Source: an uncultured Acidimicrobiales bacterium (GTDB lineage Bacteria; Actinomycetota; Acidimicrobiia; Acidimicrobiales; SHLQ01). Taken from it: 64,000 bases of DNA. The stretch is from positions 1-64,000 of the forward strand of contig CALJDK010000036.1 of assembly GCA_938023735.1 (NCBI GenBank). Direction: 5' to 3'. A model generated the notes under the pieces. That model was not told where the DNA came from and ran no database searches. It worked only from the letters and a program-made list of their open reading frames with translations. Positions 51,835 through 55,193 of this stretch are shown in pieces (the stretch's first letter is position 1; each line of letters starts with the position of its first letter). The position numbers and the translations under genes are program-made.

Positions 51835-52689
51835 CTAGTAGTCGTAGAAGCCTTTGCCGGTCTTTCGGCCGAGGAGGCCGCCCTCTACCATGCGACTGAG
51901 GAGCGGTGGTGGGGCGTAGAGCTGCTCTTTGTATTCGTCGAACATGGCCACGGCGACGTGATGAATGGTGTCGAGGCCGATCATGTCGCTCAGGGTGAGC
52001 GGGCCCATCGGGTGACCACAGCCGAGCTTCATGCCGTTGTCGATGTCTTCGACCGTTGCGTGGCCGTCGCCGAGCATGCGGATTGCGGCGACGAGGTACG
52101 GCACCAGCAGGAAGTTGACGATGAATCCCGAACGGTCGGGAGCCATTACCGGCTCTTTGTCGAGACGGTCGGCGGCGAAGGTTCGCACCCGGTCGACAAC
52201 ATCGTCGCTTGTGAGGATCGACGGAATGACCTCCACCAGCTTCATAACCGGAGCGGGGTTGAAGAAATGCAGACCCACCACGTTCTCTGGCCGCTTCGTG
52301 CTCACGGCGATCGATGCGATCGGAATCGACGACGTGTTCGAGGCGAAGATGGCCTCGGGCTTGGTGCAGACCTCGTCAAGCGCCTGGAAGATCTCGTGCT
52401 TGACCTGCGGTGACTCGACAACGGCCTCGACGACCAGGTCACAGTCGGCGAGGTCGGCGAGGTCGGTGGTGTAGCTCAGGTTGGCAATGGCCGCATCGTG
52501 GGCGTCCTGTTCGATCTTGCCGCGGTCGAGTGCCTTCCCGAAGGAACCGGAGAGACGCTTCTCGGCTCCTTCGACGGCTTCGGCGTTGATCTCGCGAATG
52601 ATGACCTTACATCCGGCCTTTGCGGCGAGTTCGGCGATTCCGGCGCCCATCTGGCCGCCGCCTACCAATCCGACTGTGTCGATCGACAT
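51835..52689 (-). CDS. 3-hydroxybutyryl-CoA dehydrogenase
   Basis: This 284-residue NAD(P)-dependent enzyme interconverts acetoacetyl-CoA and 3-hydroxybutyryl-CoA. The Rossmann motif GLVGGGQMGAGIAE lies at the N-terminus, catalytic segments SNTSSIPI and GLHFFNPAPVMKLVE in the middle, and a helical C-terminal domain includes GCGHPMGPLTLSDMIGLD. It is the short PaaH/FadB2 type, not the fused FadB. AGGAG precedes the ATG of MSIDTVGLVGG; the track start is 13 codons too early. No other beta-oxidation gene is nearby. Confidence 0.92.
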   Translation of the reverse strand: MSIDTVGLVGGGQMGAGIAELAAKAGCKVIIREINAEAVEGAEKRLSGSFGKALDRGKIEQDAHDAAIANLSYTTDLADLADCDLVVEAVVESPQVKHEIFQALDEVCTKPEAIFASNTSSIPIASIAVSTKRPENVVGLHFFNPAPVMKLVEVIPSILTSDDVVDRVRTFAADRLDKEPVMAPDRSGFIVNFLLVPYLVAAIRMLGDGHATVEDIDNGMKLGCGHPMGPLTLSDMIGLDTIHHVAVAMFDEYKEQLYAPPPLLSRMVEGGLLGRKTGKGFYDY

Positions 52690-52803
52690 GTGATTTCTCC
52701 TGTTTGGTTCGTGGCTGAAAATAGCCAACGCCGCCGGGTTCGAAGGAATCCGCAGATTCCAAACTCGATCCCGGCGGCGGTTGGTACGTGTTCGTACGTG
52801 TGG

Positions 52804-53364
52804 TTAGTCGTCGTGCTCGGTGATGGTTACCGACTGAATGACGACATCGGTGAGCGGCTTATCACCGGGAGCGGTGTCGACGTTCTGGAGCGCATCGACA
52901 ACATCGAGGCCGGCGACAACCTTGCCGAACAGTGAGTACTGCGGCGGCAGGCCGACACCCGAGGGGCCGCTGACGATGAAGAATTGGCTGCCGTTGGTGT
53001 TTGGACCAGCGTTGGCCATGGCCAACGAGCCGATTTCGTAGCGTCCGGGTGAGGGAAGCTCATCTTCAAAGCGATAGCCGGGGCCGCCTCGGCCGGTTCC
53101 GGTGGGGTCGCCGCCCTGGCACATGAATCCCTGGATGATGCGGTGGAAAATGATGCCTTCGTAGTATTTGTAGCGGGCCAGAACAACGAAGTTGTTGACG
53201 GTCTTGGGGGCAGCCGCGGCATCGAGAGCGATGGTCATGGTGCCCATCGAGGTAACCATCTCGGCGGTGTAGCGCTTCGAGGGGTCGATGCACATTGGTG
53301 GTGCGGAGTCGAACTCAACTTTGCGTTCGCTCGAACCATCTGCGGGCGGGCATTCGGTGGCCAT
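52804..53364 (-). CDS. Cyclophilin-type peptidyl-prolyl isomerase
   Basis: The 186-residue protein speeds proline isomerisation during folding. The cyclophilin core is evident: VNNFVVLARYKYYEGIIFHRIIQGFMCQGGDPTGTG with the catalytic Arg in FHRI, MANAGPNTNGSQFFIV, and SLFGKVVAGLDVVDAL. The first about 30 residues are a non-conserved extension with two cysteines; no signal peptide is visible, so it is likely cytoplasmic. A GTG three codons upstream (53373) is an equally possible start given the upstream AAGGAA. Confidence 0.92.
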   Translation of the reverse strand: MATECPPADGSSERKVEFDSAPPMCIDPSKRYTAEMVTSMGTMTIALDAAAAPKTVNNFVVLARYKYYEGIIFHRIIQGFMCQGGDPTGTGRGGPGYRFEDELPSPGRYEIGSLAMANAGPNTNGSQFFIVSGPSGVGLPPQYSLFGKVVAGLDVVDALQNVDTAPGDKPLTDVVIQSVTITEHDD

Positions 53365-53443
53365 ACTTTCCACTTTTCCTTACTTGTTTTGAAACTTGTC
53401 TTGGGTACGCGAATTGACCGACCAACTCTTTCACGGATTGGTT

Positions 53444-54268
53444 CTAGGTACGCGCTTGGGCGAGCGCGTAGAACGCAACCGCTGCCGCCGTGCCCACATT
53501 GATGGAGTCGACGTCGGCCTGCATAGGTATGCGGAGTTTGCGGTCGCTGGCTTCGATGGTCTCGGCGGTAAGGCCGGGGCCTTCCGCTCCGACCAGCAAC
53601 GCCACGTTCTGGTTAGGGTTAACGCGGAGTTGGCTGATGTCTTCGGCGGCTTTATCAGGGGTGAGGGCAAAGGTCGTGTAGCCGGCGTCGGCCAACGCCG
53701 AAAGGCTCTGAGGCATCTGCCCGATGCGGGCGTGCGGGATGGCAAACACCTCGCCCATCGATACCCGAACGGCCCGCCGATACAGCGGGTCACATGAGGT
53801 TGGGTCAAAGAGCACGCTTTCGATTCCCAGACCAGCAGCACAACGCATGATGACACCCATGTTGGTCGGGTTGTTCACCCCTTCGGTGACCAGTACGGTT
53901 CGCGAACCCTGAAGAAGATCAGCGACGTGATGCTCGGGTGGTCGCACAAAACAGGCGATGGGGTCGCGTAGTTCGGTGCGGCCCGCCACCTTTTGCAGCA
54001 CCTCGGGTCCTGCGAGAAGAACGTCGGCGCCGGAAGGAAGTGTGGGCAGTGGACGAGTGCGGGCCTGATCGACCAGCACACATTCGAGCTGGTGGCCGGC
54101 TCGCAGTGCACGATCGATGACCACGTCGCCCTCGCCGATGAATGAACCGGCCATGTCGCCGCCCGGCCGCTCACGAAGTTGACGAAGCTTGTGATCGCGT
54201 AGCCCGAGAAAGACCGCGAGTCGCGGGTCGTCGGGATCACTGACGACCGAAGAGTTGGCGTCAGTCAA
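53444..54268 (-). CDS. TrmH/SpoU-family RNA methyltransferase
   Basis: The SPOUT-fold enzyme methylates ribose in tRNA or rRNA. The knot motifs are present: VTEGVNNPTNMGVIMRCAAG, VGAEGPGLT and IPMQADVDSINVGTAAAVAFYAL. The domain before it (about 25-110) matches the substrate-binding region of this class. I place the start at a TTG (274 residues), because the upstream extension in the track is another frame of the small zinc-ribbon gene, whose stop overlaps this TTG by 8 nt; MAGSFIG further in is too late. The target nucleotide cannot be told. Confidence 0.85.
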   Translation of the reverse strand: MTDANSSVVSDPDDPRLAVFLGLRDHKLRQLRERPGGDMAGSFIGEGDVVIDRALRAGHQLECVLVDQARTRPLPTLPSGADVLLAGPEVLQKVAGRTELRDPIACFVRPPEHHVADLLQGSRTVLVTEGVNNPTNMGVIMRCAAGLGIESVLFDPTSCDPLYRRAVRVSMGEVFAIPHARIGQMPQSLSALADAGYTTFALTPDKAAEDISQLRVNPNQNVALLVGAEGPGLTAETIEASDRKLRIPMQADVDSINVGTAAAVAFYALAQART

Positions 54269-54434
54269 CGATGGTGATTGTTGAGGCGGTTTGCACGCCC
54301 TCACCGTCGCACGCCCAGCACGGCGTCTCCGGTCGACCCCTCCAGGTGACTTCACAGGTGGGGCAGAGCAACGAGATCCAGGTCCGTCGTCGTTCGGGGC
54401 TCAGTCCGATGGCGCGACCAGCTTGGGGCAACAT
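54261..54434 (-). CDS. Small zinc-ribbon protein upstream of trmH
   Basis: This 57-residue gene is too short for the ORF track. It encodes MLPQAGRAIGLSPERRRTWISL followed by CPTC and CWAC, four cysteines spaced like a zinc ribbon (C24/C27 and C39/C42). Support for its reality: a TACATT hexamer lies exactly six nt upstream of ATG, as at other leaderless genes here, and its TGA overlaps the TTG start of the methyltransferase gene. Zinc ribbons of this size often bind RNA or proteins, so a partner of the methyltransferase is a reasonable guess. Confidence 0.6.
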   Translation of the reverse strand: MLPQAGRAIGLSPERRRTWISLLCPTCEVTWRGRPETPCWACDGEGVQTASTITIVD

Positions 54435-54440
54435 TCCGAT

Positions 54441-54446
54441 TAATGT
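54441..54446 (-). promoter_or_regulatory. -10 element of a leaderless promoter for the zinc-ribbon/trmH unit
   Basis: TACATT on the complement is followed by six bases and then ATG. The divergent remainder of the gap (54447-54668) shows only a weak CCCAC-GTGGG hairpin. Confidence 0.5.
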
Positions 54447-54668
54447 ATGCGCAAAATTCGCGCATGCGGCGGTCGCATTCCCACAAGGAGTGGGTTTTCA
54501 TGTCATTTCTGGGGCTCTGATGTAACCATGATCACGAAGTGACGCAAGTTTGTAATGTTGCACATGGGCTTCACCACGTGAGATAGCAGGGGATGAACCG
54601 GGAAATACCCCCAATCGATACCTCTGCAGTACTTTCGAGCCACGAAGAGAGGGACGAGGGAGACAACA

Positions 54669-55193
54669 ATGAGCGGCAGCGTGCCACGAATAGAGGGACT
54701 TGAGCACACCATCATTCATCCGGACGGCGACAACGACGTTCCCTGGATTGCGGTGCGAAGTCAGCGCAACGCCGATGGCTCGGAGTCGAGCGTGTGGGAG
54801 CGATGGGTGGCCTTTTCGGTCGAACCGCTGTACCTGGCCCTCTTTGCCAAGTGGGATCCCGGCATGATCGTGCGGCGGCACGGCCACCACAGCCCACATA
54901 CCCTCACCGTCCTCAAGGGCGAGTTCAGTTGCGGCGACGAACTGTGCGGGGTGGGCTCGCACATCGAACTTCCCTATGGCGCAGCGTTTGGGCCGTTTGT
55001 GGCGGGACCCGAGGGGGTCGAGTTGTACGAAGTGATGATGGGCGATCCGCGCTCGTGGAGCGACGAACCCGAGGTCATGCAACAGATCCTCGCCGCCCGC
55101 GGCGTCGAGCAACTCCCCGACCCACCCATCGAGCTACCCGGCGGCCTCGAAGACCTTCGAGCCGTCTTCAGCGCCGGCGAAGGCGCAGACTGA
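54669..55193 (+). CDS. Cupin-domain protein
   Basis: The 174-residue protein has a single beta-barrel cupin: WDPGMIVRRHGHHSPHTLTVLKGEFSCG carries three histidines and a glutamate in the position of the metal-binding first motif, and ELPYGAAFGPFVAGPEGVELYEV the second. It could be a small-molecule dioxygenase, isomerase or a sensor; no substrate is indicated. A GAGGGA ribosome site lies upstream of the ATG, and the gene stands alone on the plus strand, convergent with the SGNH hydrolase. A 14-nt direct repeat (CTGAATACGGTGTC twice) lies at its stop. Confidence 0.8.
   Translation: MSGSVPRIEGLEHTIIHPDGDNDVPWIAVRSQRNADGSESSVWERWVAFSVEPLYLALFAKWDPGMIVRRHGHHSPHTLTVLKGEFSCGDELCGVGSHIELPYGAAFGPFVAGPEGVELYEVMMGDPRSWSDEPEVMQQILAARGVEQLPDPPIELPGGLEDLRAVFSAGEGAD

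Follow-up and report, generated by a model that had tools for sequence, protein, structure and literature searches.

The window (the whole stretch of 64,000 nucleotides analysed here) carries on its minus strand a small open reading frame with two cysteine pairs, which we call the ribbon, together with the genes of an RNA methyltransferase, a cyclophilin and a dehydrogenase (Table 1). The preliminary description of this DNA had placed a 57-residue zinc-ribbon gene here and given no strand. On the plus strand this interval is interrupted by a stop; the 57-codon ORF is the minus-strand reading, MLPQAGRAIGLSPERRRTWISLLCPTCEVTWRGRPETPCWACDGEGVQTASTITIVD. A cupin-like ORF, recognised by eye at 54669-55193, is divergent from the ribbon; the relative G003 has it with 97% identity, and in the congener G002 it is missing from this locus.

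Table 1. Features around the ribbon gene (positions in the window).
Feature	Position	Strand	Remarks
3-hydroxyacyl-CoA dehydrogenase	51835..52728	minus	orthologue match; adjoins cyclophilin in many relatives
Cyclophilin-type peptidyl-prolyl isomerase	52804..53373	minus	PF00160; long-term ribbon neighbour
SpoU/TrmH-superfamily RNA 2'-O-methyltransferase	53444..54268	minus	PF00588, E=1e-31; TTG start
57-aa zinc-ribbon protein gene	54261..54434	minus	ATG 54434-54432, TGA 54263-54261
-10 box TACATT	54442..54447	minus	7 nt before ATG, leaderless-type promoter; TANNNT in 33/33 orthologues
GCGACC, probable degenerate copy of the TCCACC element	54471..54476	minus	about 23 nt from the -10 box; weak in the window

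The existence of the gene is borne out by its orthologues and by coding selection. We compared 59 genomes of the same order and found orthologues throughout the family, with 96, 82 (81-82) and 64% identity in three congeners and 45-54% in other genera; their length is about 43-66 aa. Between the window genome and its closest relative (G003), 24 synonymous changes were counted against 3 non-synonymous ones, corresponding to a dS of 0.98 and a dN of 0.024. Conservation and dN/dS together rule out a chance ORF. Judged by this substitution pattern, the 57-codon ORF is a genuine gene under coding selection. Our reading is that it has passed by vertical descent through several families of an order in the Acidimicrobiia (Actinomycetota).

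The CPTC and CWAC pairs noticed earlier are both present in the window protein, with 11 residues between them. They belong to a core, C-x2-C-E-V-T-W-R-G-x5-C-W-x-C, which is followed by a conserved C-terminal strand (TITIVD). In 27 sequences, the second paralogue described below among them, C24, C27, V29, W31, C39, W40 and C42 are invariant. It had been proposed to look in relatives for the cysteines and an intact frame; both are kept there, as the start codon and all four cysteines are preserved across the family. AlphaFold predicts for the window protein a beta-hairpin (pLDDT 86-91 over residues 21-50) preceded by a disordered N-terminus. Considering the invariant cysteines and the predicted hairpin, the four cysteines would hold one zinc ion. 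Most members, the window protein among them, have a neutral to acidic net charge; some members of two families (f27 and f141) are basic, with a pI of 9-10.

No Pfam or NCBIfam model reached its cut-off in a profile search with the window protein, and the other 26 members gave weak matches to these libraries (best E about 0.002). We rejected DUF7836 (18.1 bits for a gathering cut-off of 26.7), Anti-TRAP (RtpA; 11.9 for a cut-off of 32 and 12.3 for 65) and DnaJ CXXCXGXG (a sub-threshold match), as their likeness to the window protein consists of short cysteine patterns and their curated cut-offs are left unreached. A fold search returned nothing at E<=0.001, with a weak resemblance to eS27 and rubredoxin-type ribbons, and the PDB sequence matches were retroviral zinc knuckles of about 18 residues that we judged to be a resemblance of pattern only. 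A phage origin was also set aside (best phage match at an unconvincing E of 0.8), as was a structured RNA at the locus, where Rfam gave no match.

Among described proteins, the ribbon fits the published pattern of the CPxCG-related small zinc fingers, which have fewer than 100 residues, two Cys/His pairs 7-40 residues apart and at least one CPxCG, CPxCx or CxxCG (Tarasov et al. 2008, PMC2253796). With 57 aa, and with CPTCE and CWAC separated by 11 residues, the window protein falls within these limits. Such proteins are often unannotated, and one of them, Brz, adjoins the gene it controls (PMC2253796). Unlike the ribbon, Brz is haloarchaeal and has a His in its motif; the likeness seen here is one of cysteine pattern.

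The same genomes also carry a second paralogue (CDVAWSG...CWVCGEPG...LDFDY), whose copy in the window genome lies at G000:C158:13277-13375; the other copies include L024-L029, L031 and L032, and L031 holds two of them on opposite strands. It shares with the ribbon the core C-x2-C-[DE]-V-x-W...C-W-x-C and differs by another conserved C-terminus and by other neighbours (by eye, thiamine pyrophosphokinase-like and DUF72-like). In ten copies examined we found no TANNNT-N5-8-ATG/GTG start, and one case of TTG.

The start region of the ribbon itself differs slightly from what had been described. The TACATT hexamer is present, but the spacer that separates it from the ATG (AATCGGA) has 7 nt and not six. 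Every one of the 33 orthologues has a TANNNT box followed after 5-8 nt (exactly 7 nt in 25 of them) by an in-frame ATG or GTG that precedes the ribbon core; these orthologues are related and therefore not 33 independent events. By comparison, 3.3% (5-8 nt) and 1.5% (exactly 7 nt) of random anchors, taken in the same loci with 20 open codons upstream, pass the same test. The coding stretch between the box and the ribbon core varies in length and letters among orthologues. In high-GC bacteria, leaderless genes are marked by a TANNNT some 12 bp ahead of the start codon (Zheng et al., PMC3160421), and all 33 orthologues have it. Because the box is found in every orthologue at a distance that is rare among random anchors, the mRNA from which the ribbon is translated is very probably leaderless. 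Actinobacterial leaderless small proteins (PMC4633059, PMC3898074, PMC3160421) share with the ribbon the TANNNT about 12 bp before ATG/GTG and a short, often unannotated ORF; the difference is that here we deal with one defined zinc-ribbon family, mostly without a co-directional operon downstream.

Further upstream, the orthologues (for example L013, L015, L016, L021 and L076) carry another element, in most cases TCCACC or TCACCC, which ends 20-21 nt before the TANNNT box, a spacing that is not that of a standard -35. In this TCCACC-N20/21-TANNNT arrangement a C is found at -22 in 32 of 33 orthologues. A genome-wide search for the pattern gave no excess over a reversed control, which argues against a broad promoter regulon, and 5 of the 9 matches with a leaderless arrangement in the genomes searched were the ribbon gene itself. 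The element is apparently private to the ribbon gene.

This private element, together with the precedent of Brz in Halobacterium (PMC2253796), keeps a local regulator among the candidates. By analogy, the ribbon might control the transcription of a neighbour or of itself, with TCCACC-N20/21-TANNNT as operator, and the strong conservation of the element before the gene, as well as its moving with the ribbon in the inversions described below, would suit such a role. We nonetheless consider it possible rather than likely, since the protein is of no known DNA-binding family and is neutral or acidic in most members, the window and G003 have degenerate copies of the element, and an unrelated factor could bind it.

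Downstream, the ribbon meets the methyltransferase. This had been labelled TrmH, a name that is right at the level of the superfamily but goes too far beyond it, as the protein fails to reach the cut-off of any named RlmB/TrmH equivalog. The 8-nt overlap reported between the two genes is present in the window, where the TTG at 54268 precedes the end of the ribbon stop (54268-54261: TTGACTGA). The conservation of this overlap, which had been offered as a check, did not hold. Among the relatives compared, the overlap is limited to the window genome; the corresponding TTG starts 14 nt past the ribbon stop in G003, and in G002 the start is an ATG about 47 nt past it. The methyltransferase adjoins the ribbon only in these three genomes, all of one genus. 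In the fourth congener (G001) the ribbon is followed by the cyclophilin after a 160-nt gap with nothing between, and the methyltransferase homologues lie on other contigs (C35 and C38), away from the ribbon. Homologues are likewise on other contigs in genus g5 and in G006, and were not found at E<=1e-30 in the incomplete assemblies G004, G005 and G008. By sequence comparison, the methyltransferase is a late arrival, inserted between ribbon and cyclophilin within the window's genus, and in the window it is probably co-transcribed with the ribbon, riding on the ribbon's promoter.

These results bear directly on the function proposed in the preliminary description, namely that the ribbon is an accessory factor of the RNA methyltransferase. 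In such a role it would bind RNA and guide or stabilise the enzyme made from the same mRNA. The two genes are indeed adjacent and co-directional in three congeners, overlap in the window, and the enzyme's family acts on RNA. Across relatives, the linkage does not extend beyond this part of one genus: all other ribbon loci are without the enzyme nearby, and homologues are present where no ribbon lies beside the cyclophilin (e.g., G027 and G033). Moreover, the window ribbon is neutral or acidic, and in the same genome pairs the ribbon is 96% and 81-82% identical and the adjoining methyltransferase 77% and 66%, a greater conservation of the ribbon that does not suggest a co-evolving subunit. We therefore regard this role as very improbable.

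The neighbour that persists is the cyclophilin. With neighbours identified by tblastn, it stands beside the ribbon wherever the locus is not truncated by the end of a contig; G008, the one exception, is truncated. Across the order we looked at 50 cyclophilin (PF00160) loci, part of which had been picked for carrying the ribbon, so that the fraction is not an unbiased rate: the ribbon was directly adjacent in 27, separated by one gene in 5 (the methyltransferase in 3, the dehydrogenase in 2), and not found within the searched range in 18. The dehydrogenase sits between ribbon and cyclophilin in family f141. In G034 (family f17) the cyclophilin and a ribbon-like match are about 1.3 kb apart, with the dehydrogenase between them. 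In further cyclophilin loci of the order the ribbon was absent. As the cyclophilin is widespread without the ribbon, it does not need it. Genomes without a ribbon near the cyclophilin often carry a tandem pair of cyclophilin genes (many families, e.g., L110, L112 and L121).

The ribbon is divergent from the cyclophilin in 25 of the 32 linked loci. It is co-directional with it in G012, G014 and G018 of genus g5 as well as in the window's genus, where the other neighbours are unchanged; the ribbon and its promoter were therefore inverted in place. The cyclophilin tree, a quick one with many weakly supported forks, requires at least three orientation changes, suggesting three or more in-place inversions of the ribbon together with its promoter, with the adjacency to the cyclophilin retained. 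In genus g5, L068, L071 and L074 have the ribbon and its promoter inverted between the cyclophilin and the kinase or lipase genes relative to L067, L069, L070 and L072, and no flanking inverted repeats were found at this inversion. We rejected a phase-variable invertible element, since neither the window nor relatives have long inverted repeats flanking the locus.

Orientation also weighs on a reading in which the product does not matter. The ribbon is leaderless, carries cysteines and is the first ORF of the likely transcript in the window, and it could be imagined as a cysteine-responsive leaderless uORF, where translation of the cysteine codons regulates the downstream genes, as proposed for mycobacterial uORFs (PMC4633059). 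This is contradicted by most relatives, where the cyclophilin is divergent and not downstream, and a co-directional operon directly downstream is not found across them. In addition, purifying selection over the whole protein and the zinc-ribbon spacing point to a working product, leaving the uORF with hardly any credit.

The meaning of the linkage is less clear-cut, as conserved gene order by itself could explain it: the dehydrogenase is linked as well. In that case the ribbon would be a plain small zinc-binding protein (a zinc store, a redox switch or a ribosome-associated ribbon) whose place beside the cyclophilin was inherited without functional meaning. The resemblance to eS27 and rubredoxin-type ribbons, none of it significant, and the synteny kept by other neighbours agree with this; that the adjacency outlasted at least three inversions and the turnover of the other flank speaks against it, and we find it rather unlikely.

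The reading that we prefer, with a probability of roughly 45%, is that the ribbon acts as a small adaptor or regulatory subunit with ties to the cyclophilin locus. Expressed from a leaderless promoter of its own, the protein would hold one zinc ion by its four cysteines. Its rigid hairpin (VTWR) and conserved C-terminal strand may offer a surface on which a partner protein docks, which would give the product its part as adaptor or regulatory subunit. As partner process, the first candidate would be the folding of proteins or the cyclophilin locus, rather than the RNA methyltransferase. Contact with protein is favoured over contact with nucleic acid because most members are neutral to acidic, and this charge together with the conserved C-terminal strand favours a protein-binding adaptor; the basic members of f27 and f141 would, as a caveat, suit nucleic-acid binding. 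A bolder and doubtful version would see here a zinc-ribbon cassette, undescribed so far and driven by its own promoter, which docks onto or regulates the cyclophilin-type isomerase; in it, promoter and gene invert as a unit and stay beside the isomerase, and the private two-box element may provide gene-specific control, perhaps by the gene's own product.

In conclusion, adjacency in one genome can mislead: the overlapping methyltransferase came late, and the relatives point to the cyclophilin. The conserved core combined with TANNNT-N7-start offers a recipe for finding similar small genes. The ribbon adds a small-protein family that is named by neither of the profile libraries searched (Pfam and NCBIfam) and has strong sequence evidence of translation, an ordinary but well-supported new family.
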